Virus record (IMG/VR): IMGVR_UViG_3300050125_000040
Location: 1-26,451 of that record
Length of the DNA stretch: 26,451 nt
DNA from: a virus
Strand: one strand, 5' to 3'
The position numbers and the translations under genes are program-made. How positions within the stretch are numbered: position 1 is the first letter of the stretch; each line of letters opens with the position of its first letter. Positions 1,608-25,899 of the stretch are shown piece after piece. Under the pieces are notes generated by a model that was not told the origin of the DNA, ran no database searches, and worked only from the letters and a program-made list of their open reading frames with translations.

Positions 1608-1798
1608 AACCCTGTCCCCAGCGGCACTAGCCGCAACTCATATTCCTGAGTGTAGTTTCCCTTCTCATCTAGGCAAGGATACATAATACAGGGGTTTGTC
1701 ATAGTCGGCTCACGGAATTTCCAGCCAAATTTCTCGGCGGTGTCCTGCAACGCCAACTGCATCTGCACCATCTTCTCTATTGCATTGTTCTGAGTCAT
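1604..1798 (-). CDS. Hypothetical protein (64 aa)
   Basis: Unknown family. Its leader GAGAGGACTCAGC before ATG again joins an SD to the GACTCAG element. The first 90 nt also encode, in another frame, the tail of the HNH endonuclease gene. This looks like a phage gene whose 5' end was invaded or abutted by the endonuclease rather than a random overlap. Confidence 0.6.
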   Translation of the reverse strand: MTQNNAIEKMVQMQLALQDTAEKFGWKFREPTMTNPCIMYPCLDEKGNYTQEYELRLVPLGTGL

Positions 1799-2333
1799 GC
1801 TGAGTCCTCTCGTAACTTGTGATGTACCTGAGCGCTCGGCTCGTCCACGTCTCCGGGGCTCCTAGGGTTTTCAGTGTCCCTGCCTTGGGTATTACTAGGG
1901 CTTCCCTCATAATGTTTTCCAAAGCTCCTAGTCTGCGATTGCATGGGCCACACAAAACGCCACGATTGCACTTTCCACAAGTTCTGGCTTTGCCGTCGCA
2001 GCATGCGTGGTCATGGTCTATGTGTAGACGACTTCCAGCGTCTCCATCTGTGCTGGGACAGAGAGCGCAGTGCCCGCCTTGGGATTCTAACTGAGAGTCA
2101 AACTGCTCAGGTGTCCAATGGTATCGCCCGATACTTGCGGAGCGTACTACCTTTGCTCTGAACTTTGGGTTTTCATCGTAGGACTTCTTGAAATTCCTTT
2201 GCTGATTCACAGCAATCTCTGGATTGCTATGGTACAACTTCTTTGCACGTTTTGCGTTGTAGTCTCTAAACTCTTCTGGGTTTTCTTTGAGCTGTTTCTC
2301 CCGCCATGCTTTACTTCGTTCACTACTTGTCAT
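1710..2333 (-). CDS. Free-standing HNH endonuclease, endonuclease VII-like (207 aa)
   Basis: The C-terminal half carries the endonuclease VII / HNH core: CALC, then LHIDHDH, then CGKCNRGVLCGPCNRRLGAL. This gives the paired zinc Cys motifs and the catalytic His/Asp cluster of the family. The N-terminal third is basic with repeated Lys/Arg-Tyr-Asn-Pro segments, as in DNA-contacting regions of homing HNH enzymes. I chose the ATG at 2333 because GAGGAG lies 6 nt upstream; a longer frame from 2432 has no SD. The gene begins just after the major capsid stop at 2455 and overlaps the next gene by 89 nt. By analogy with phage homing endonucleases it may cut intron-less capsid alleles in relatives (inference). 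Confidence 0.85.
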   Translation of the reverse strand: MTSSERSKAWREKQLKENPEEFRDYNAKRAKKLYHSNPEIAVNQQRNFKKSYDENPKFRAKVVRSASIGRYHWTPEQFDSQLESQGGHCALCPSTDGDAGSRLHIDHDHACCDGKARTCGKCNRGVLCGPCNRRLGALENIMREALVIPKAGTLKTLGAPETWTSRALRYITSYERTQHDSEQCNREDGADAVGVAGHRREIWLEIP

Positions 2334-2334
2334 G

Positions 2335-2425
2335 TTCATCTCCTCGAAAGATCGAGCAGGGAGATGTTCGAGGCATCTCCCCACTCTTTTAGTGTACCAC
2401 AACCGCTGTGGTACAAGCTTACCGT
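2335..2425 (-). promoter_or_regulatory. Hairpins in the leader of the HNH gene
   Basis: Three inverted repeats follow each other between the capsid stop and the HNH start on the minus strand: GTACCACA/TGTGGTAC, GGGAGATG/CATCTCCC, and CTCGA/TCGAG. The last one touches the GAGGAG SD. Such structures could block translation from long transcripts, as described for some T4 homing endonuclease genes. That role here is inferred. Confidence 0.5.
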
Positions 2426-2454: not shown

Positions 2455-2521
2455 TCATACGGTCGGAACAGCGGCGTTTTGGAGGTACAAACCGGCCCTC
2501 GGTGCCGCGTTCGCCAAGTTG
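2455..2521 (-). CDS. Major capsid protein, exon 4 (C-terminus and stop)
   Basis: In the frame set by splicing, this segment reads NLANAAPRAGLYLQNAAVPTV followed by TGA; the first base completes the Phe codon begun in exon 3. It has no start of its own. It only makes sense as the capsid C-terminus joined to the preceding exon through intron 3. The joined message is 4412-3300, 3083-2964, 2747-2725, 2521-2455, giving 440 residues. Confidence 0.8.
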
Positions 2522-2724
2522 CTTATTGTTACACTCTTTTCGAGCGGTGCAGGCATTTCTGCTGCACTCATACGGTTGTTGTTCCCGTATAGTTCGGACT
2601 ATTGCATCACCCTTGCGGGCGTTTCTTCGCTTAGTCTCTCACGGTCTCTTTCGAGTTCCGCCTCGTTGGCATTTCAGCGTTCGAGTCAATCAGAAGAAAT
2701 TTTACTTGCTCCAACTTTTCTTAA
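2522..2724 (-). ncRNA. Group I intron 3 of the capsid gene (203 nt)
   Basis: The 5' exon end CTTGCTT pairs with the guide GAGCAAG (2711-2705) with U.G at the splice site, forming P1. The first exon 4 bases CAACTT pair perfectly with the adjacent AAGTTG, forming P10. P7 is GACTA (2636-2632) with TAGTC (2601-2597). P9-type hairpins ACGG/CCGT and GTGCAG/CTGCAC follow. The last base is G. The intron has no ORF. Without splicing, translation stops at once after exon 3 (TTT TAA). Confidence 0.88.
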
Positions 2725-2747
2725 AAGCAAGTGTTGTAGGCAAACAT
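2725..2747 (-). CDS. Major capsid protein, exon 3 (23-nt micro-exon)
   Basis: Only 23 nt lie between introns 2 and 3, encoding MFAYNTC plus two bases of a Phe codon. Both boundaries are supported by P1 and P10 pairing in the flanking introns and by reading-frame continuity: ...YLTSH-MFAYNTCF-NLANAAPRAG.... The segment has no start, stop or function alone. Confidence 0.82.
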
Positions 2748-2963
2748 CTTGTTTTGTTATACTTAGCTATTTACTAAGTAGTACAGGCATTTCTGCTGCA
2801 CTCATACGGTTGTTGTTCCCGTATAGCTCGGACTATTGCATCACCCTTGCGGGCGTTTCTTCGCTTAGTCTCTCACGGTCCCTTGCGGGTTCCGCCTCGT
2901 TGTCATTTCAGATTTCGAGTCAATCAGAAGAAATTTTACTCGCACATATTATGCCTTGGGTTT
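2748..2963 (-). ncRNA. Group I intron 2 of the capsid gene (216 nt)
   Basis: Exon end CTCGCAT pairs with guide GTGCGAG (2945-2939), again with U.G at the junction. Exon 3 start ATGTT pairs with AATAT (P10). P7 is GACTA (2870-2866) with TAGTC (2835-2831). The core from about 2942 to 2781 is nearly identical to that of intron 3, while guide and 3'-terminal loops differ. The last base is G. It lacks an ORF. Read through, it would add KPKA and then stop. Confidence 0.88.
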
Positions 2964-3083
2964 ATGCGAGGTCAAATAAGACGACGTGCCTGCCTGACCA
3001 TTGATGTCAGGTACGGGAGCAACCACGTTCCCACCACCGAAGTCGTAAAGCTCCAGAGGAGAGAGTTCACCGATATACCACAA
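2964..3083 (-). CDS. Major capsid protein, exon 2 (40 codons)
   Basis: This segment reads LWYIGELSPLELYDFGGG and continues through a Val/Pro-rich stretch to SYLTSH. It is in frame with exon 1 after removal of intron 1 and with exon 3 after removal of intron 2. It has no start codon or SD. The residue pattern is that of a structured phage capsid C-terminal region, not of a random frame. Confidence 0.82.
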
Positions 3084-3299
3084 ACTTGTTACACGCTTAG
3101 CGTGGTGCAGGCATTTCTGCTGCACTCATACGGTTTTCGTTCCCGTATAGTTCGGACTATTGCATGCGCTTCCGCGCTCTTCTCGCTTAGTCTCTCAGGC
3201 TGCTTTCGCTTGCCCCTCGTTGCCGTTTCAGGATTCGAGTCAATCAGAGAAGATTTTTCATTCCTACAAACGTAGGTGGGACAACCAGTAATTCGGTTA
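3084..3299 (-). ncRNA. Group I intron 1 of the capsid gene (216 nt)
   Basis: Exon end GGACAAT pairs with guide GTTGTCC (3285-3279). P2 is CCTAC/GTAGG, P7 is GACTA (3192-3188) with TAGTC (3159-3155), and the P9-type hairpins match those of introns 2 and 3. A TAA follows the exon directly, so unspliced mRNA ends there. The boundaries are uncertain by one base. Removing 3299-3084 or 3300-3085 gives the same mRNA, but the first ends in T and the second would leave A before the 5' splice site. Both depart from the usual U...G rule, so the exact chemistry needs cDNA. Confidence 0.82.
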
Positions 3300-4412
3300 A
3301 TTGTCCAAAACCAACAGGTCCATTCGATTGTTGATTGCCGTCCAAGATTTGTGATACTTCCTGCCGCCAAAAGTATCGGAGAAGTACTTCTTGGACATAT
3401 CCAGAGTCTTATCGCCCTTGATTTCCTGAGCGTTTGCGATCTGGACGTTGTACATCAGGTTGCTCTGAGCAAATGCCTGCTCAGGCGGGCCGTACCAAAT
3501 GCCCGACTTGATGCTGTCTGCATCAGGACCCAGTGCGCGACCAAGGAGAACCTCGGCACGCTGAGCGATACCCGGGGTAATAGCTGCACCGTTGAGATTA
3601 ATCGTAGGTGTGCTCAGACGACCCGGATAGGTCGCACGGTTCAGGCCAGCGATGGTGCCGCTGTTGGAGTTCACGTCCCAAGCTTTGATGCCCAGAAGTG
3701 AGTTGCCTGCCCCGTAGGTCGCACCATTGACCACAACGAAGTCTGTGACTACCAGACCGATGATGTTAGCCAAGTTGGTGCTGAAAAACAGAGTGTTGCT
3801 AGGTCCGTCACTATACGAGATAGTGGCCGGTCCACCCGCACGGAGAACGCCCCCGGCGCTATAGAACTGCACCTGTTGCTGATCCGTAAAGGCCACTGCG
3901 ACGTTCATACCAGCGATGCTGGATGCTGCGCCCAGTGTGATGACTGCCGCTGCCGGGATCTGGTCGATCATGCCCGAACCGTCCGAGTTGATCAAGCCTT
4001 CGATACCCTGCATCGCTGCGTCCAGAGAGTTTTTCATCTCCTGCGCTTTGACTGCGAACAGACCCTTCTGCTTGGAATCTGTGGAAGCCTGAGCCAGCCA
4101 CGAGATCTCGCAGACGTTAAAGAGGTACACAGGTGCCAGCGCGAACGATGCCCACTGAGATCCGGTACCGCGACCCATAGAGTCTGCGTTGCCAGTTCCC
4201 TGAGAGATTGCTGCGCCTGCCTGCACTCGGAACGGCACCCTGAAGGATGCACGAACCGTTCCACCAGCATTCGATTGATTGCTGACGGGGATATTGGTCG
4301 CCTCAGCCTTGAACATCGAATAGGCTGTGGTGCCATGGAAAACTAGATCGGGAATTTCTTTTGCAAATGCATCTAGTTCCACTGCTTCTACTGCGGCTTC
4401 TAATAGAGCCAT
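3300..4412 (-). CDS. Major capsid protein, exon 1 (371 codons)
   Basis: Builds the icosahedral head shell. The N-terminal part (EIPDLVFHGTTAYSMFKAEA and following) and the long, Gly/Ala-rich, low-Cys body look like a phage major capsid protein. Its position after a probable scaffold and a small basic gene agrees. The frame ends at LLVLDN before an intron TAA. With exons 2-4 the product is 440 residues, ending NAAVPTV. No strong SD precedes the ATG (only GAAAG), which is odd for such an abundant protein. The assignment rests on order, size and composition rather than a diagnostic motif. Confidence 0.85.
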
Positions 4413-9879: not shown

Positions 9880-10089
9880 CTCTGCATGTTACCATGCAGC
9901 TCAGACTATATCATCATCCCTTTCAGGATGCAGAGTGCTTCGGAGTCACTGACCCCTACTCCCTTGCGGGATAGTCGTTACACCTTCCTCTTTCGAGGCT
10001 CGGCTCGGTATTGACCCTTGCGGGGTGTTTCACCGAATTCTCTCTGTTATTTTTATCCATACTTACGTATGGGCGACACAGGTTTGTTT
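9880..10089 (-). ncRNA. Group I intron in the portal gene (210 nt)
   Basis: Exon end GACAT pairs with guide GTGTC (10079-10075), with U.G at the splice site. A P2 hairpin CCATAC/GTATGG follows. P7 is GACTAT (9976-9971) with ATAGTC (9909-9904). The last hairpin is CTGCATG/CATGCAG, and the final base is G. A TAA lies directly after the 5' splice site. It contains no ORF and is clearly diverged from the three capsid introns except in core layout and size. Confidence 0.85.
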
Positions 10090-10324
10090 ATGTCTGTTCT
10101 ACTTCGAGTCTACGCGCTGCAACATCGGTCTTTGTTGCGATTATGTCAAGTTGGAGGAGCGCTCCCTTTGCATCCTCCGATAGCTCCGCGAACGGCTCGG
10201 AAGAATATGGAAACGGAGCGTACACACCCAAAGGACTTGAATTAGGATTCTCTGGTTGCTCATACGGCAAAGGACTAGGAGGACTAGGAGCATTCGTAGT
10301 CAGGGTATTAACTTCATCCGGCAT
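10090..10324 (-). CDS. Portal protein, exon 1 (78 codons)
   Basis: This encodes the portal N-terminus: a Pro/Ser-rich flexible start, then a helical stretch LLQLDIIATKTDVAARRLE leading into the intron. The ATG at 10324 has a perfect AAGGAG 6 nt upstream. Its first 11 nt overlap the HNH endonuclease stop. By itself the frame would end at 78 residues; its helix continues sensibly into exon 2 (VEQTF-RMETILAQQLEV). Confidence 0.82.
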
Positions 10325-10868
10325 TTATTTCTCCTTGGACTCTATAGTCTATGACCTTTGCACCCTTTTTAGAGTTGCATGGACCGCACAGCGGCTGTAT
10401 GTTGTCAATGTTGCTTGTGCCTCCCAACTTTATAGGGATCACATGGTCCGCTGTGAGCTTTCTTTTCTTTTTGCAACGTAAGCATTTGTACCCGTACTTT
10501 TTACAGAGAATTTTCCATTCCGCAACCGTATATGAACCACCGGCCATAGTCTTTCTTGTTTTACGCACATGACCGTGCATACGCTGAGCTTCAGGATTTT
10601 CTTTTCGCCACTTAGAGATTCCCTCTTTTACTTCTTCAGGATTCTCTTCACGGTACCTCGCACTGTATGCAAGAGCCTTTTCCCGGGTCTCCTCGTAGTG
10701 CTTCTTCCTACGAGCTTTAACTTTTTCGGGATATTTTTTCGCCCATTTTGTGTAGTTAGCTCTGCATGCTTCCCTGTGAGACTTGGCCCATTCCGCAGAT
10801 TGTTGCAATTGCTTCTCTTTGTTTTCCAAATAATTCTTATGACGTAATTCTGGTGTTGCGTATGGCAT
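10314..10868 (-). CDS. Free-standing HNH endonuclease (184 aa)
   Basis: The C-terminal 55 residues have a canonical HNH domain: CLRCKKKRKLTADHVIPI, an Asn-rich linker, then PLCGPCNSKKGAK. The DH pair, two CxxC zinc motifs and the Asn are all present. The N-terminal 110 residues are repeated, highly charged helices (Tyr, Lys, Glu, Asn-Pro) that likely contact DNA. I chose the ATG at 10868 because AAGGGG lies upstream; the frame extends further without an SD. The gene sits exactly between the small KGSFSV protein gene and the portal gene and preserves the portal SD inside its own 3' end. It lies beside, not within, the portal intron, so it may mobilise that intron in trans (inference). Confidence 0.88.
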   Translation of the reverse strand: MPYATPELRHKNYLENKEKQLQQSAEWAKSHREACRANYTKWAKKYPEKVKARRKKHYEETREKALAYSARYREENPEEVKEGISKWRKENPEAQRMHGHVRKTRKTMAGGSYTVAEWKILCKKYGYKCLRCKKKRKLTADHVIPIKLGGTSNIDNIQPLCGPCNSKKGAKVIDYRVQGEINAG

Positions 10869-10940
10869 ACTGTCCCCTTTCATAGGACAGGCCGGGAGTG
10901 TGAAAGTCACTCAACCGGCCCTAACTCTGGATTCGAGGTC
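10869..10940 (-). promoter_or_regulatory. Hairpins in the leader of the portal-side HNH gene
   Basis: On the minus strand three inverted repeats follow one another: CTCTGGA/TCCAGAG, a long one GGCCGG..GAGTG/CACTC..CCGGCC, and TGTCC/GGACA, whose 3' arm covers part of the AAGGGG SD. Together they could act as an attenuator or hide the ribosome site. The capsid-side HNH gene has a similar series. Confidence 0.5.
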
Positions 10941-16244: not shown

Positions 16245-16319
16245 TGGCTGTGCCCGCAGGATTCGAACCTGCACCTTTCGCATTAACAGTGCGGAGTCCT
16301 GCCGTTAGACCAGAGCACA
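16245..16319 (-). tRNA. tRNA-Asn (GTT), CCA encoded
   Basis: A full cloverleaf: acceptor TGTGCTC/GGGCACA (one G.U), D arm GTC/GAC, anticodon loop CTGTTAA with anticodon GTT, and T arm GCAGG-TTCGAAT-CCTGC. The discriminator is G, as in Asn tRNAs, and the 3' CCA is encoded. The first anticodon-stem pair is a C:A mismatch. It lies on the leftward transcript ending at the terminator near 16,114-16,146. Confidence 0.88.
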
Positions 16320-16946: not shown

Positions 16947-17021
16947 TGGAGCCCTAGGAGTGATTCGCACACTCGACCCGCTGATTACAGATCAGCCGCT
17001 CTGCTACTGAGCTACACGGGC
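16947..17021 (-). tRNA. tRNA-Thr (TGT)-like gene with degenerate positions
   Basis: A D arm GCTC/GAGC, anticodon stem GCTGA/TCAGC, T stem GAGTG/CACTC and encoded CCA are intact. The anticodon loop TCTGTAA places TGT at the anticodon. Several normally fixed features are broken: C instead of U at position 33, G instead of T at position 55 (loop TGCGAAT), and two mismatches in the acceptor stem (GCCCGTG with CTAGGGC). It may be decaying or non-functional, though the size (75 nt) and arms are right. Confidence 0.65.
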
Positions 17022-17812: not shown

Positions 17813-18010
17813 TTGGATAACCCTTCGCAGTACAAGGTGCTGGACCTAGAACATCTCCAGCCACGTAAAGAAAAGCACAGTGAGTTTGGGTATGTGGTTG
17901 GAAATATACAGGTAATCTCTGGCAGAGCAAATCGCATCAAGAGTGATGCCACTTTAGAAGAGTTGACAAAAATCACGGAGCACCTAAAATGCCTGAAGTC
18001 TCGACGATGA
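17813..18010 (+). CDS. Small HNH-family C-terminal-like protein or remnant (65 aa)
   Basis: The segment GYVVGNIQVISGRANRIKSD followed by ATLEELTKI resembles the C-terminal part of small phage HNH proteins (GYxxGNVQVIS-RAN-IKxDATLEEL). The Cys and His ligands expected before it are absent, so this is a fragment or a shortened descendant. A TTG at 17813 has GGAG 8 nt upstream. Residues 8-15 (KVLDLEHL) recur exactly at the polymerase N-terminus, with mostly synonymous base changes. Its stop overlaps the polymerase 5' end. Confidence 0.5.
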   Translation: MDNPSQYKVLDLEHLQPRKEKHSEFGYVVGNIQVISGRANRIKSDATLEELTKITEHLKCLKSRR

Positions 18011-20592
18011 AGGTACTGGACCTTGAGCATCTGAATCCCCCGATGAATGTCACTGTGGTGACCCCCAGTGATGGACTGCCAAAGCTTGCTGCATGGATTT
18101 CTGAGAAAATAAAGACTCGCAGCCCCATGGGGTTTGACACAGAGTCCAACTGGGTGCATGATTTCTTTTTCAGAATTCTGCGCACAATCCAAGTTGGCGA
18201 TAAGGAACAGCAGTTCGTGATTGATCTTTTAGCCTTCGCTGGAACACCAGAAAAGCTAGCAAGTTCTCAGGGTTACTATAAACTCGACCCCATCTATAAA
18301 CCAATCTTCGATATTCTCACCCCAGCATTATGTGGCAATGCGGTTTTGAAAGTGGGACAGAACCTCTCCTTCGAATATGAAGTGATGTATTGGAACTTCG
18401 GGCAGCGCATTTGGCATCTGTACAGCACTGACCTAGCGGAGCGTGTCATTCAAGCCGGTCGCATCAGTCTGAAGAGGATGGTCGAATTCTCCATGCGCAG
18501 GATTGTAGAGCGCAGATTCAGCGTGACTGTAGATAAAGAGGAGCAGGACAAATTCGAGCCAGATGCAGTACTGACTCCGAAGATGATCCTCTATGCAGCC
18601 TTCGATACACGTATGCCGCTGTCCATGCGTGAGTCGCAGATTCAGGAGATGACGAAGGATCTTCTGCTCTCCACTGCGTTGATTGAGAATGATGCATTGG
18701 GTTCCTACACAGACATGCACCTTAATGGCCTGCTCCTTGATGGCCAGCGCTGGCTTAAGCGACTTGAGGGTGTAGTTGCAAGACGTGTAGATGAACTGCG
18801 TCTTCTCGATATCGAATTCATCAGGCTCATGGGCAAGAAGAATGAACAGATTGACTTCGAGGAGATGAACAGGCGCGAGATCCATTGGCGGAATGATTTT
18901 GAGTTGGCATCTTCCCCAGAGATGGCAAAGGCTGAAGAGATTCGCGCTACGCGTGACAATGCGAAGAAGGCCGTACTCAGGGCTGAGCTGGCTGTCCTTA
19001 AGAAAGTCCGATCCGAAGCTAAGCAAGTAGCTCACCAAGCATTTTTGGAGATTAGCAAGAACCACACGAAGTGGAAAATCAAAGTTGAAACCTGTGAGGG
19101 TGATGCTTACCTCAACTACGGTTCCAATAACCAGCTGCTCGAAGCTCTAAAGAAGGTGCGCGGTATGAGCACCCTGAAGAGTGTGGCAGATGACGATCTT
19201 CTGGAATACAACGATAGACCCTTCATTCAGACTCTTCGCAAATACCGCAAGGGCAAGAAGGACACAGGCACGTACGGTGTGCAGTGGGCGCAGACATGGA
19301 TAACCAAGGCATCCTCAGAGGAAGGCTGGGTACATCCATGGGATGGTAGGATACACGCGAAGTTCAACCAGCTTGAAGCTGAGACTGGGCGTAGCTCCTC
19401 CGAAAAGCCCAGCGTAATGAACCTCCCGAAAGATGATGAGGTCCGCGCTTGCTTTATTGTGTCCCCACCTAACGAGGACATTCGCATCTCAGATTGCTGC
19501 GAAGATGAAACAGACTTCTGCATGCTTGGCGATGGTTGCCTCAGGCACATTTGCAGGAAATGTGGCAAGGATTGCCTGACGCACGCTGAGGAATATGTTC
19601 TAGTCACGACTGATATGTCAGGGGCAGAATTGCGGATCATCGCAGAACTGGCCAATGCCACATCGTGGATCAGAGCCTTCGCTAACGGCTGGGATGTCCA
19701 CTCAGTTTCCACGGAGATCTTGGAGCCTGAGAAGTGGGCGAATGGTGCAGCACAACCCGGAGAACTGGATAAAGAAGGAAAGCCACTACCACCCTGCGCA
19801 TACTTTGAACTGGATGAAAAGGGTGAGCAGAGGAAACAGAAGTGCAGATGCCCCAAGCACGAAGAATTGCGTGCGCACACCAAGGCAATCAACTTCTTAC
19901 TTTGCTACGGTGGTGGACCTGATGCGCTGGCTGATGAGTTAGGTATTTCCAAAGAAGAAGCCAAGCGTCTCATGAAACAGCACGAAGCCGCATTCCCTGA
20001 TGTCTGGCGTTACCTGAGGGAGTCTGGTGAAAAGGCTCAGAGGCTGTTTGAGGCAAGAGATCTGTATCTACGCAGACGCTCACTCCCCAAGCCGACCTAT
20101 GAGAGTGCGAAGGAATATTTCAAGGACGAGCATGCTGATCGCTTGGAACTTGAGGAAGATGTTCAGAAGCAGAACATCTTCAACTTCACAGCTGAGTACT
20201 TGCGTAAGCCCACGGCTGACGAAAAGCACAAGCTGACGCACCGCGAGCCAACGGATAACGAGATCCGGCAAGCGATGCGCGGACTGGTTGGGTCAATCGG
20301 AAGACGGGGAAAGAACCATTGCATTCAGGGCAGCAATGCCAGCATCATCAAGCGTGCTATGGGCTGTGGCTTTGACAAGGATGGAAAACCTTTCCTGTGG
20401 CATATTCTGCCACTGTTTAAGGCTAAGCTTCTGTCCATGATTCACGATGAACTCATCGTGCAGTGTCCGAAGCGCTTTGCAAAGCAAGTAGCCGAAGCTG
20501 TTGCTGATGCTTTCAGACGTGCCGCAGCTGAGGTGATGAAGAAAGTCATCATGGAAGCTGAGTATCACATCGCTAATCGCTGGCAGAAATAG
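17989..20592 (+). CDS. Family A DNA polymerase with 3'-5' exonuclease (867 aa)
   Basis: Replicates the phage genome. Exonuclease motifs are present: GFDTES (about residue 47), NLSFEYE (125) and YAAFDT (201). The polymerase has motif A DMSGAELR (541), motif B KAINFLLCYGG (631) and motif C HDELIV (819). A Cys-rich insertion with eight Cys (CCEDETDFC to CGKDC, residues about 502-525) sits just before motif A. A second small Cys cluster (KCRCPKH, about 618) lies between motifs A and B. The start at 17989 has GGAG 9 nt upstream; an ATG six codons later is an alternative. No 5'-nuclease domain. Confidence 0.95.
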   Translation: MPEVSTMKVLDLEHLNPPMNVTVVTPSDGLPKLAAWISEKIKTRSPMGFDTESNWVHDFFFRILRTIQVGDKEQQFVIDLLAFAGTPEKLASSQGYYKLDPIYKPIFDILTPALCGNAVLKVGQNLSFEYEVMYWNFGQRIWHLYSTDLAERVIQAGRISLKRMVEFSMRRIVERRFSVTVDKEEQDKFEPDAVLTPKMILYAAFDTRMPLSMRESQIQEMTKDLLLSTALIENDALGSYTDMHLNGLLLDGQRWLKRLEGVVARRVDELRLLDIEFIRLMGKKNEQIDFEEMNRREIHWRNDFELASSPEMAKAEEIRATRDNAKKAVLRAELAVLKKVRSEAKQVAHQAFLEISKNHTKWKIKVETCEGDAYLNYGSNNQLLEALKKVRGMSTLKSVADDDLLEYNDRPFIQTLRKYRKGKKDTGTYGVQWAQTWITKASSEEGWVHPWDGRIHAKFNQLEAETGRSSSEKPSVMNLPKDDEVRACFIVSPPNEDIRISDCCEDETDFCMLGDGCLRHICRKCGKDCLTHAEEYVLVTTDMSGAELRIIAELANATSWIRAFANGWDVHSVSTEILEPEKWANGAAQPGELDKEGKPLPPCAYFELDEKGEQRKQKCRCPKHEELRAHTKAINFLLCYGGGPDALADELGISKEEAKRLMKQHEAAFPDVWRYLRESGEKAQRLFEARDLYLRRRSLPKPTYESAKEYFKDEHADRLELEEDVQKQNIFNFTAEYLRKPTADEKHKLTHREPTDNEIRQAMRGLVGSIGRRGKNHCIQGSNASIIKRAMGCGFDKDGKPFLWHILPLFKAKLLSMIHDELIVQCPKRFAKQVAEAVADAFRRAAAEVMKKVIMEAEYHIANRWQK

Positions 20593-25544: not shown

Positions 25545-25562
25545 GGGAAAATTTTACCTAGG
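25545..25562. repeat. AAAATTTTAC repeat, copy 1
   Basis: GGGAAAATTTTACCTAGG, following a GC-rich CCGTCCGTGTG stretch. The repeat lies just after the HNH stop. Confidence 0.55.
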
Positions 25563-25863
25563 TCTTTCTCCGTGTGCTTTCCGAGGGGTTTTCGTACCGC
25601 TTAATCCAGTTGCAGTTGGCGCAAAGACACTGGTAATCCTCAAAAGGCACGGTGCCCTTCAGGATCTTCAGGTACAGCCCAGTGCTCCCACGGCCATACA
25701 GGGTGTTCCCATGGTTGTTGTTTACTGCCCCGCCTTTCCTGTGGTCGATCTGTAGGGCTCGGGGATCTGTGAAGCCGCAGCGATTGCAACGTGTGTCGAA
25801 GATGGCTAGGCATCTTTCTTTGATTCCGGCCTTGTAGGCTCGGCAGTAGGTAGCGTTATTCAT
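25558..25863 (-). CDS. HNH endonuclease (101 aa), isolated
   Basis: CNRCGFTDPRALQIDHRKGG carries the first Cys pair and the DH of an HNH nuclease. PFEDYQCLCANCNWIKRYEN completes it with CxxC and the Asn. The length fits a minimal stand-alone HNH protein. It is alone on the minus strand amid non-coding DNA, downstream of the rightward terminator. No SD precedes the ATG at 25863. A TTG frame from 25899 overlaps the candidate promoter, so a (nearly) leaderless message is possible. Likely a mobile homing-type gene. Confidence 0.85.
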   Translation of the reverse strand: MNNATYCRAYKAGIKERCLAIFDTRCNRCGFTDPRALQIDHRKGGAVNNNHGNTLYGRGSTGLYLKILKGTVPFEDYQCLCANCNWIKRYENPSESTRRKT

Positions 25864-25870
25864 GTCTACT

Positions 25871-25899
25871 ATTGTCTCATAGAAGACAGAGAAAGTCAA
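25871..25899 (-). promoter_or_regulatory. Candidate promoter for the isolated HNH gene
   Basis: TTGACT (25899-25894), a 17-bp spacer and GACAAT (25876-25871; 4 of 6 consensus bases). The start site would fall within two or so bases of the ATG at 25863, giving a leaderless transcript. Confidence 0.4.

Follow-up and report, generated by a model that had tools for sequence, protein, structure and literature searches.

In Staphylococcus phage Twort, orf142 contains three group I introns; according to the passages that describe it, introns 2 and 3 are alike, the exon between them is only 23 nt long, and exon skipping has been reported (PMC10136302, citing Landthaler and Shub 1999; PMC11878797). 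The major capsid gene of a crAss-like phage of the Zeta group (OLRF01000054) is broken into five fragments, most of them separated by group I intron domains (PMC7886860), and the major capsid gene of mycobacteriophage LittleE holds a group I intron whose splicing was shown by reverse transcription-polymerase chain reaction (PMC3706429). The passages on the Bastillevirinae report several group I introns per gene in polymerase and terminase genes (PMC11878797), and those on the Jug phages report small introns of ~206 nt in many genes (PMC12363816); in both groups splicing was shown by cDNA or metatranscriptome (PMC11878797, PMC12363816). Here, we describe the major capsid gene of the IMG/VR virus record IMGVR_UViG_3300050125_000040, a 26.5-kb stretch of DNA (positions 1 to 26,451; the window) in which the gene lies on the minus strand at 4412-2455. 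The original prediction, made from the letters of the window and a list of its open reading frames (ORFs), was that this gene is split by three ORF-less group I introns. With a probability of about 0.95, we conclude that it is, and that removal of the introns would restore a capsid protein of 439 amino acids (aa).

Exons, joints and product of the capsid gene

The capsid ORF (3297-4412, minus strand) terminates at LLVLDN. C-terminal capsid sequence resumes in three further segments, with three paralogous elements in between; both the stop and the continuation had been predicted, and the ORF list and the homologues agree. The splice joints were placed by three rules: the 5' exon ends in a U paired to G, the intron ends in G (omega-G), and the guide pairs with the 3' exon to form P10. 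The introns and exons that result are listed in Table 1; none of the introns contains an ORF. P1 is 7, 7 and 8 bp at introns 1, 2 and 3, each time with U.G at the 5' splice site, omega-G falls at 3081, 2748 and 2522, and P10 is 5, 5 and 6 bp. Intron 1 also has a P2 hairpin, CCUAC/GUAGG. In a spliced alignment the joined exons form an open frame of 439 codons plus stop, in the same register as the intron-free relatives and with the C-terminal peptide SYLTSHMFAYNTCF. A homing-endonuclease ORF, the mark of a mobile intron, was found in none of the three window introns.

Two of the three predicted joints (2964/2747 and 2725/2521), and with them the exons of 23 and 67 nt, stand as given. The first had been placed 3 nt off, at 3300/3083, where it breaks omega-G and P10 and inserts a spurious Leu that is not in any homologue. 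A joint at 3300/3080 satisfies the frame, U.G, the terminal G (3081) and a 5-bp P10, and makes WYIGEL follow directly on the final exon 1 codon, as it does in all relatives. Exon 2 is thereby corrected from 40 codons to 117 nt, and the product from 440 to 439 aa.

The 371-aa part encoded before the stop was searched in IMG/VR, giving 52 loci. About 12 intron-free relatives (e.g. L003, L004, L012, L014, L017, L040, L042 and L052) encode the joined C-terminus uninterrupted, as ..WYIGELSPLELYDFGGGNVVAPVPD..SYLTSHMFAYNTCFNLANAAPRAGLY.QNAAVPT. The original prediction had been staked on intron-less relatives containing the joined sequence, and they do. No intron-sized insert was seen in more distant homologues (43-65% identity, ~45 loci). 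Neither a phage collection (tblastn with the capsid protein; intron 2 DNA), nor plasmids (intron 2 DNA), nor bacterial and archaeal genome contigs (capsid profile) gave a match.

Pfam and PHROG gave no family match for the capsid protein. An AlphaFold (AF2) model of an intron-free homologue, made from a 30-sequence alignment, had a predicted local distance difference test score (pLDDT) of 73.5 and a predicted template modelling score (pTM) of 0.75. Foldseek matched this model to solved HK97-fold capsids in the PDB (best E 1e-8) and, among predicted structures (BFVD), to the capsid of Arthrobacter phage Jasmine (E 2e-21). On the evidence of the model, the gene product is an HK97-fold major capsid protein. 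The predicted beta-strands 378-388, 410-426 and 433-436 fall in the part encoded by exons 2-4, so an unspliced product would probably lose part of the capsid fold.

These observations bear on two other accounts of the locus. The gene might be decaying or alternatively ended, with translation stopping at LLVLDN and the downstream segments being relics between non-functional inserts. A length of 371 aa is plausible for a capsid protein, and damaged genes are possible in metagenomic contigs. However, none of the four exons is damaged or out of frame, and all match the intron-free homologues; none of the three introns has a broken P1 or P10; compensatory changes across the family maintain the cores (below); and what would be lost is predicted to form beta structure in the capsid fold. 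We consider this account very improbable. Still less credible is that the three elements are assembly artefacts or misplaced repeats in one contig: the near-identical introns 2 and 3 could confuse assemblers, but the same three nucleotide sites hold introns in independent metagenome contigs (L006, L009, L013, L015, L025, L028 and L036), and both guide and P9.2 differ from one window intron to the next.

Ribozyme cores and the proposed splicing

The window introns were compared with related introns in an alignment of 31 sequences from capsid genes of this family (class A), in which P3, P4, P5, P6, P7, P8, P9, P9.1 and P9.2 were annotated by hand. Paired cells amounted to 96.2%, as against 75.7% in column shuffles and 32-39% when the alignment was slid. 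Changes on both sides were present in 35 of the 47 pairs, and there were 287 double-change cells compared with 80 in the shuffles. Covariation was seen in P3, P4, P5, P6, P8, P9, P9.1 and P9.2, with UA/CG/AU exchanges at most pairs of P3. At the level of sequence this covariation excludes a chance origin of the pairing. The alignment contains the group I core helices P3, P4, P6, P7 and P8, with the P3/P7 pseudoknot.

A covariance model built without any window intron (R2) scored the three introns in the window at 223, 214 and 200 bits; its one other match there was a weak overlap (21 bits) with an intron in the portal gene. The Infernal search that had been proposed as a check indeed gave no match: although the Rfam group I model RF00028 (Intron_gpI) has the same P3-P9 architecture, it does not report the three window introns even at E=10, and its gathering threshold of 50 bits is not reached. 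This does not refute the prediction, since RF00028 misses the whole class, recovering no class A copy in 14 loci tested, while R2 scores 200-223 bits. RF00028 does detect a second class, B: the window's portal gene holds one such intron (55.7 bits), and other capsid genes of this family hold more. We read the miss as a limit of that Rfam model and class the window introns as group I, not as members of RF00028; judged by its alignment, class A is a compact phage group I class invisible to Rfam. The predicted arrangement, a major capsid gene with three ORF-less group I introns and a 23-nt exon, is thus borne out by the intron-free homologues, P1/P10, U.G/omega-G, covariation, an independent covariance model and the capsid fold prediction.

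From the observed positions, frame, pairing, covariation and intron-free alleles, we infer self-splicing in vivo as follows. One capsid mRNA would carry three compact group I ribozymes. Each would fold (P3-P9.2) and form P1 between its internal guide and the last bases of the upstream exon, so that U.G falls at the 5' splice site; exogenous guanosine would be used for the cut at the 5' splice site; and the exons would be joined at the intron-final G, aligned by a P10 of 5-6 bp with the intron's own downstream exon. Removal of all three introns would give the 439-aa HK97-fold major capsid protein, while without splicing translation would end after 371 aa and the beta-strands of the C-terminal exons would be lost. 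The three introns would be ORF-less passengers. Introns 2 and 3 have near-identical cores, and in relatives sites 1113 and 301 combine one guide with different cores (below); this suggests that the introns spread by exchanging cores, through recombination or gene conversion, and by homing, the latter perhaps aided by nearby or intron-borne endonucleases.

Several points weigh against this interpretation. P7 is invariant in the 31 introns and so contributes no covariation; such invariance is expected of a guanosine-binding site. Because RF00028 misses class A, the group I assignment draws on covariation and the splice-site rules rather than on a curated model. Splicing itself, including guanosine-dependent self-splicing, is deduced from sequence, and a passage on phage introns states that some group I introns fail in vitro and may need factors from the infected cell (PMC11878797).

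Introns 2 and 3 are mutually the closest among all introns examined: their cores are 94.8% identical, with 7 of 135 core columns differing. Their guide segments resemble those of same-site introns in other viruses. We read this as a recent exchange of cores, and limit the claim to this pair. Over the whole set, introns of one gene are not in general more similar than others: their mean core identity is 0.70, compared with 0.77 for introns at the same site and 0.69 for other pairs.

Such similarity around a 23-nt exon recalls Twort orf142, for which the passages report skipping, and regular skipping of exon 3 would give two capsid C-termini by alternative splicing. We consider this unlikely at the window locus. 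The P10 guides pair over 5, 5 and 6 nt with their own 3' exons, compared with 0-4 nt for non-cognate exons, and between the guide of intron 2 and exon 4 there is no contiguous pairing. Loss of exon 3 would also shift the frame, putting an unrelated tail of ~60 aa in place of the conserved capsid C-terminus. With every P10 guide best suited to the exon that follows its own intron, we expect most transcripts to keep the 23-nt exon, and skipping does not appear to be favoured.

Inserts across the capsid gene family

Spliced alignment of the relatives (minimum intron 28 nt) placed inserts at nucleotides 18, 30, 45, 46, 63, 101, 114, 301, 362, 441 and 961/968 of the coding sequence, and further inserts at 1038, 1113, 1164, 1230, 1235, 1240, 1249, 1253, 1263, 1275 and 1288; where the P1 match is short, the site given may be wrong by a few nt. 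More inserts lie near the end of the gene in L016, L029 and L043. Some 20 sites of the capsid gene are occupied, with 0 to 7 inserts per gene. The L037 gene (986-5059) has seven (sites 18, 45, 63, 301, 362, 441 and 1253), and two of its internal exons are just 27 and 18 nt long; its spliced frame is open throughout, from MALLEAAVEAV to QNAAVPTI. The original prediction had called the window arrangement very unusual in phages. This is too strong: three inserts are ordinary in this clade, and both Twort orf142, as described in the passages on it (PMC10136302), and the crAss-like capsid gene (PMC7886860) are precedents.

Judged by motif, the longer introns of the relatives carry ORFs for LAGLIDADG (sites 301, 362 and 441), GIY-YIG (63) and HNH (1113 in L036) endonucleases. 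Introns orthologous to those of the window occur in other viruses, with class A cores at sites 1230 and 1253. At site 1113 the window intron and that of L036 (3335-4054) share the P1-P2 guide segment, whereas their cores differ in class and the L036 intron contains the HNH gene; site 301 likewise combines a shared guide with different cores. The pattern, as read from sequence, is one of guides that stay with the site while ribozyme cores differ, i.e. core exchange behind a fixed guide. The clade is thus a natural experiment in which the same gene has 0-7 inserts, with guides conserved by site and cores exchanged.

In relatives of 60-110 kb, class A matches lie almost only in the capsid gene. 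A pattern search of IMG/VR returned 100 stretches, and where a spliced frame could be followed, class A introns were also found in genes whose products, named by eye, resemble other capsid proteins, portal, terminase large subunit and ribonucleotide reductase. Because Rfam does not see class A, phage capsid, portal, terminase and ribonucleotide reductase genes with such introns are probably annotated as broken. Among the matches to a second covariance model (R1), class A introns are closely clustered in other phage genes in L063, L061, L081, L087 and L116, with internal exons of 30 nt (L063) and apparently ~20 nt (L087).

Some relatives, but not the window, have mini-inserts of 39-49 nt. They occur at eight distinct loci: at site 18 (L045), 45 (L019, L020, L030 and L037), 46 (L027) and 63 (L194 and L203). 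Every one is preceded by U, has a final G and is too short for a ribozyme; P1 is 5-9 bp long, with a U.G pair marking the joint, and P10 is 5-8 bp long. Shuffled mini-inserts were equally good in 0-4 of 100,000 trials. P1 covaries (TAGACGCT/GGCGTCTA in L037 versus TTGACGCT/GGCGTCAA in L020), as does P10 (TTTGCT/AGCAAA in L037 versus TTTGCC/GGCAAA in L019), and in L027 the joint is shifted one base to the next U with the guide shifted along. Most mini-inserts shift the frame or introduce a stop codon. Upstream of them, codon differences are 164 synonymous to 16 non-synonymous, and in the spliced alignment the frame is restored once they are removed.

A class A ribozyme lies 18-83 nt downstream of the mini-insert in 8 of 8 loci, whereas no mini-insert is present in the ~31 loci whose first 120 nt lack a class A intron (Fisher p 1e-6 by loci and 1e-4 by five independent groups, from hand counts). 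Excision by the neighbouring class A ribozyme, with catalysis deduced from the sequence, appears to be the best explanation. Translational bypassing was rejected: take-off and landing triplets mismatch, and in L027 a Phe codon is divided by the junction (T|TT), a join that bypassing could not make. More broadly, the ribozyme core may be a module that is separable from the substrate part (P1/P10 guide and final G). The core would have been lost at sites 18, 45/46 and 63, leaving 39-49-nt introns removed by the ribozyme 18-83 nt downstream, so that one natural ribozyme would splice two introns. We place this at even odds.

If this is true, the mini-inserts are the group I counterpart of degenerate group II introns. 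They open to direct test the long-standing idea that the ribozyme of a self-splicing intron can be lost, with a single ribozyme then serving several introns. Loss of the ribozyme to a shared catalyst is a proposal for the origin of the spliceosome. Our search of open-access papers turned up no natural group I introns that lack a ribozyme, and if a neighbour does excise the mini-inserts, they would be the first known to us. Engineered 'spliceozymes' that remove introns in trans exist, according to the passage on them (PMC4094466).

Neighbouring genes and comparison with known systems

A free-standing HNH/endonuclease VII-like gene lies just downstream of the capsid gene (Table 1). Its homologues lie behind the capsid genes of most relatives, including some intron-free ones, and one is inside the site-1113 intron of L036. 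It may be a candidate homing endonuclease for the neighbourhood, and collaborative homing is possible. Two further HNH endonuclease genes are on the minus strand at 10314-10910, directly upstream of a split portal gene, and at 25558-25899. This putative portal gene is interrupted by a class B group I intron (9882-10079, minus strand, and about 9840), the one detected by RF00028, between the ORFs 10324-10088 and 9895-7394. A short HNH-like ORF (17813-18010, plus strand) and the start of the DNA polymerase ORF that overlaps it (17989-18050, plus strand) share the peptide KVLDLEHL, possibly a duplication left by endonuclease insertion. Two tRNA genes (16248-16319 and 16950-17021, both minus strand; Rfam 58.6 and 51.4 bits) lie between the structural and replication genes.

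Table 1. Coordinates of the capsid gene features and the adjacent endonuclease gene in the window, and of mini-inserts in relatives (numbered within each relative). IGS, internal guide sequence.
Feature	Position	Strand	Details
Exon 1, major capsid gene	3300-4412	-	1113 nt, 371 codons, ends ..GAC AAT; from ORF, homologues and spliced alignment
Intron 1	3081-3299	-	219 nt, class A group I, ORF-less; R1 206 bits, R2 200 bits; placed by frame, U.G, omega-G and P10
P1 of intron 1	3279-3306	-	exon GGACAAU (3306-3300) with IGS GUUGUCC (3285-3279); U.G at 5' splice site; direct reading
P10 of intron 1	3290-3286 with 3080-3076	-	guide UACUG with 3' exon UGGUA; direct reading
Exon 2	2964-3080	-	117 nt; WYIGELSPLELYDFGGGNVVAPVPDINGQAGTSSYLTSH; register as in intron-free relatives
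Intron 2	2748-2963	-	216 nt, class A group I, ORF-less; R1 215 bits, R2 214 bits
P1 of intron 2	2939-2970	-	exon CUCGCAU (2970-2964) with IGS GUGCGAG (2945-2939); direct reading
P10 of intron 2	2950-2946 with 3' exon	-	guide AAUAU with 3' exon AUGUU; direct reading
Exon 3	2725-2747	-	23 nt; ATGTTTGCCTACAACACTTGCTT; MFAYNTC plus two bases of F
Intron 3	2522-2724	-	203 nt, class A group I, ORF-less; R1 230 bits, R2 223 bits
P1 of intron 3	2704-2732	-	exon ACUUGCUU (2732-2725) with IGS GAGCAAGU (2711-2704); direct reading
P10 of intron 3	2717-2712 with 3' exon	-	guide AAGUUG with 3' exon CAACUU; direct reading
Exon 4	2455-2521	-	67 nt including stop codon; ..NLANAAPRAGLYLQNAAVPTV*
HNH/endonuclease VII-like gene, free-standing	1710-2339	-	Pfam PF02945 47.6 bits; PHROG endonuclease VII
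Mini-insert, L037	1228-1268		L047 same
Mini-insert, L019	473-513		
Mini-insert, L020	225-264		
Mini-insert, L030			site 45, 40 nt
Mini-insert, L027	3699-3737		
Mini-insert, L045	4955-5000		
Mini-insert, L194	2800-2848		
Mini-insert, L203	3707-3745		

Twort orf142 is the closest precedent for the window locus, followed by the crAss-like capsid gene, LittleE, the Bastillevirinae and the Jug phages. As in orf142, there are three group I introns in one virion-protein gene, with highly similar introns 2 and 3 around a 23-nt exon. The Twort gene differs, on the passages available, in encoding a tail tube protein and in having introns 2 and 3 assigned to subgroup IA2; the window cores are compact and unseen by Rfam, and the window P10 guides argue against exon skipping. 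The crAss-like gene is likewise a capsid gene split with group I introns, but those were recognised by their endonuclease domains (PMC7886860), whereas the window introns are ORF-less ribozymes of ~200 nt with a 23-nt exon. LittleE differs in having a single intron with an HNH gene inside (PMC3706429). The Bastillevirinae and Jug introns are in other genes and phage groups, and the passages on them do not describe a capsid gene with this many insertion sites. The major capsid gene of the window thus joins a very short list of virion genes in which two near-identical group I introns flank a 23-nt exon. The cluster arrangement itself has precedent; what is new is the density of insertion sites in this capsid gene family, together with the mini-inserts.
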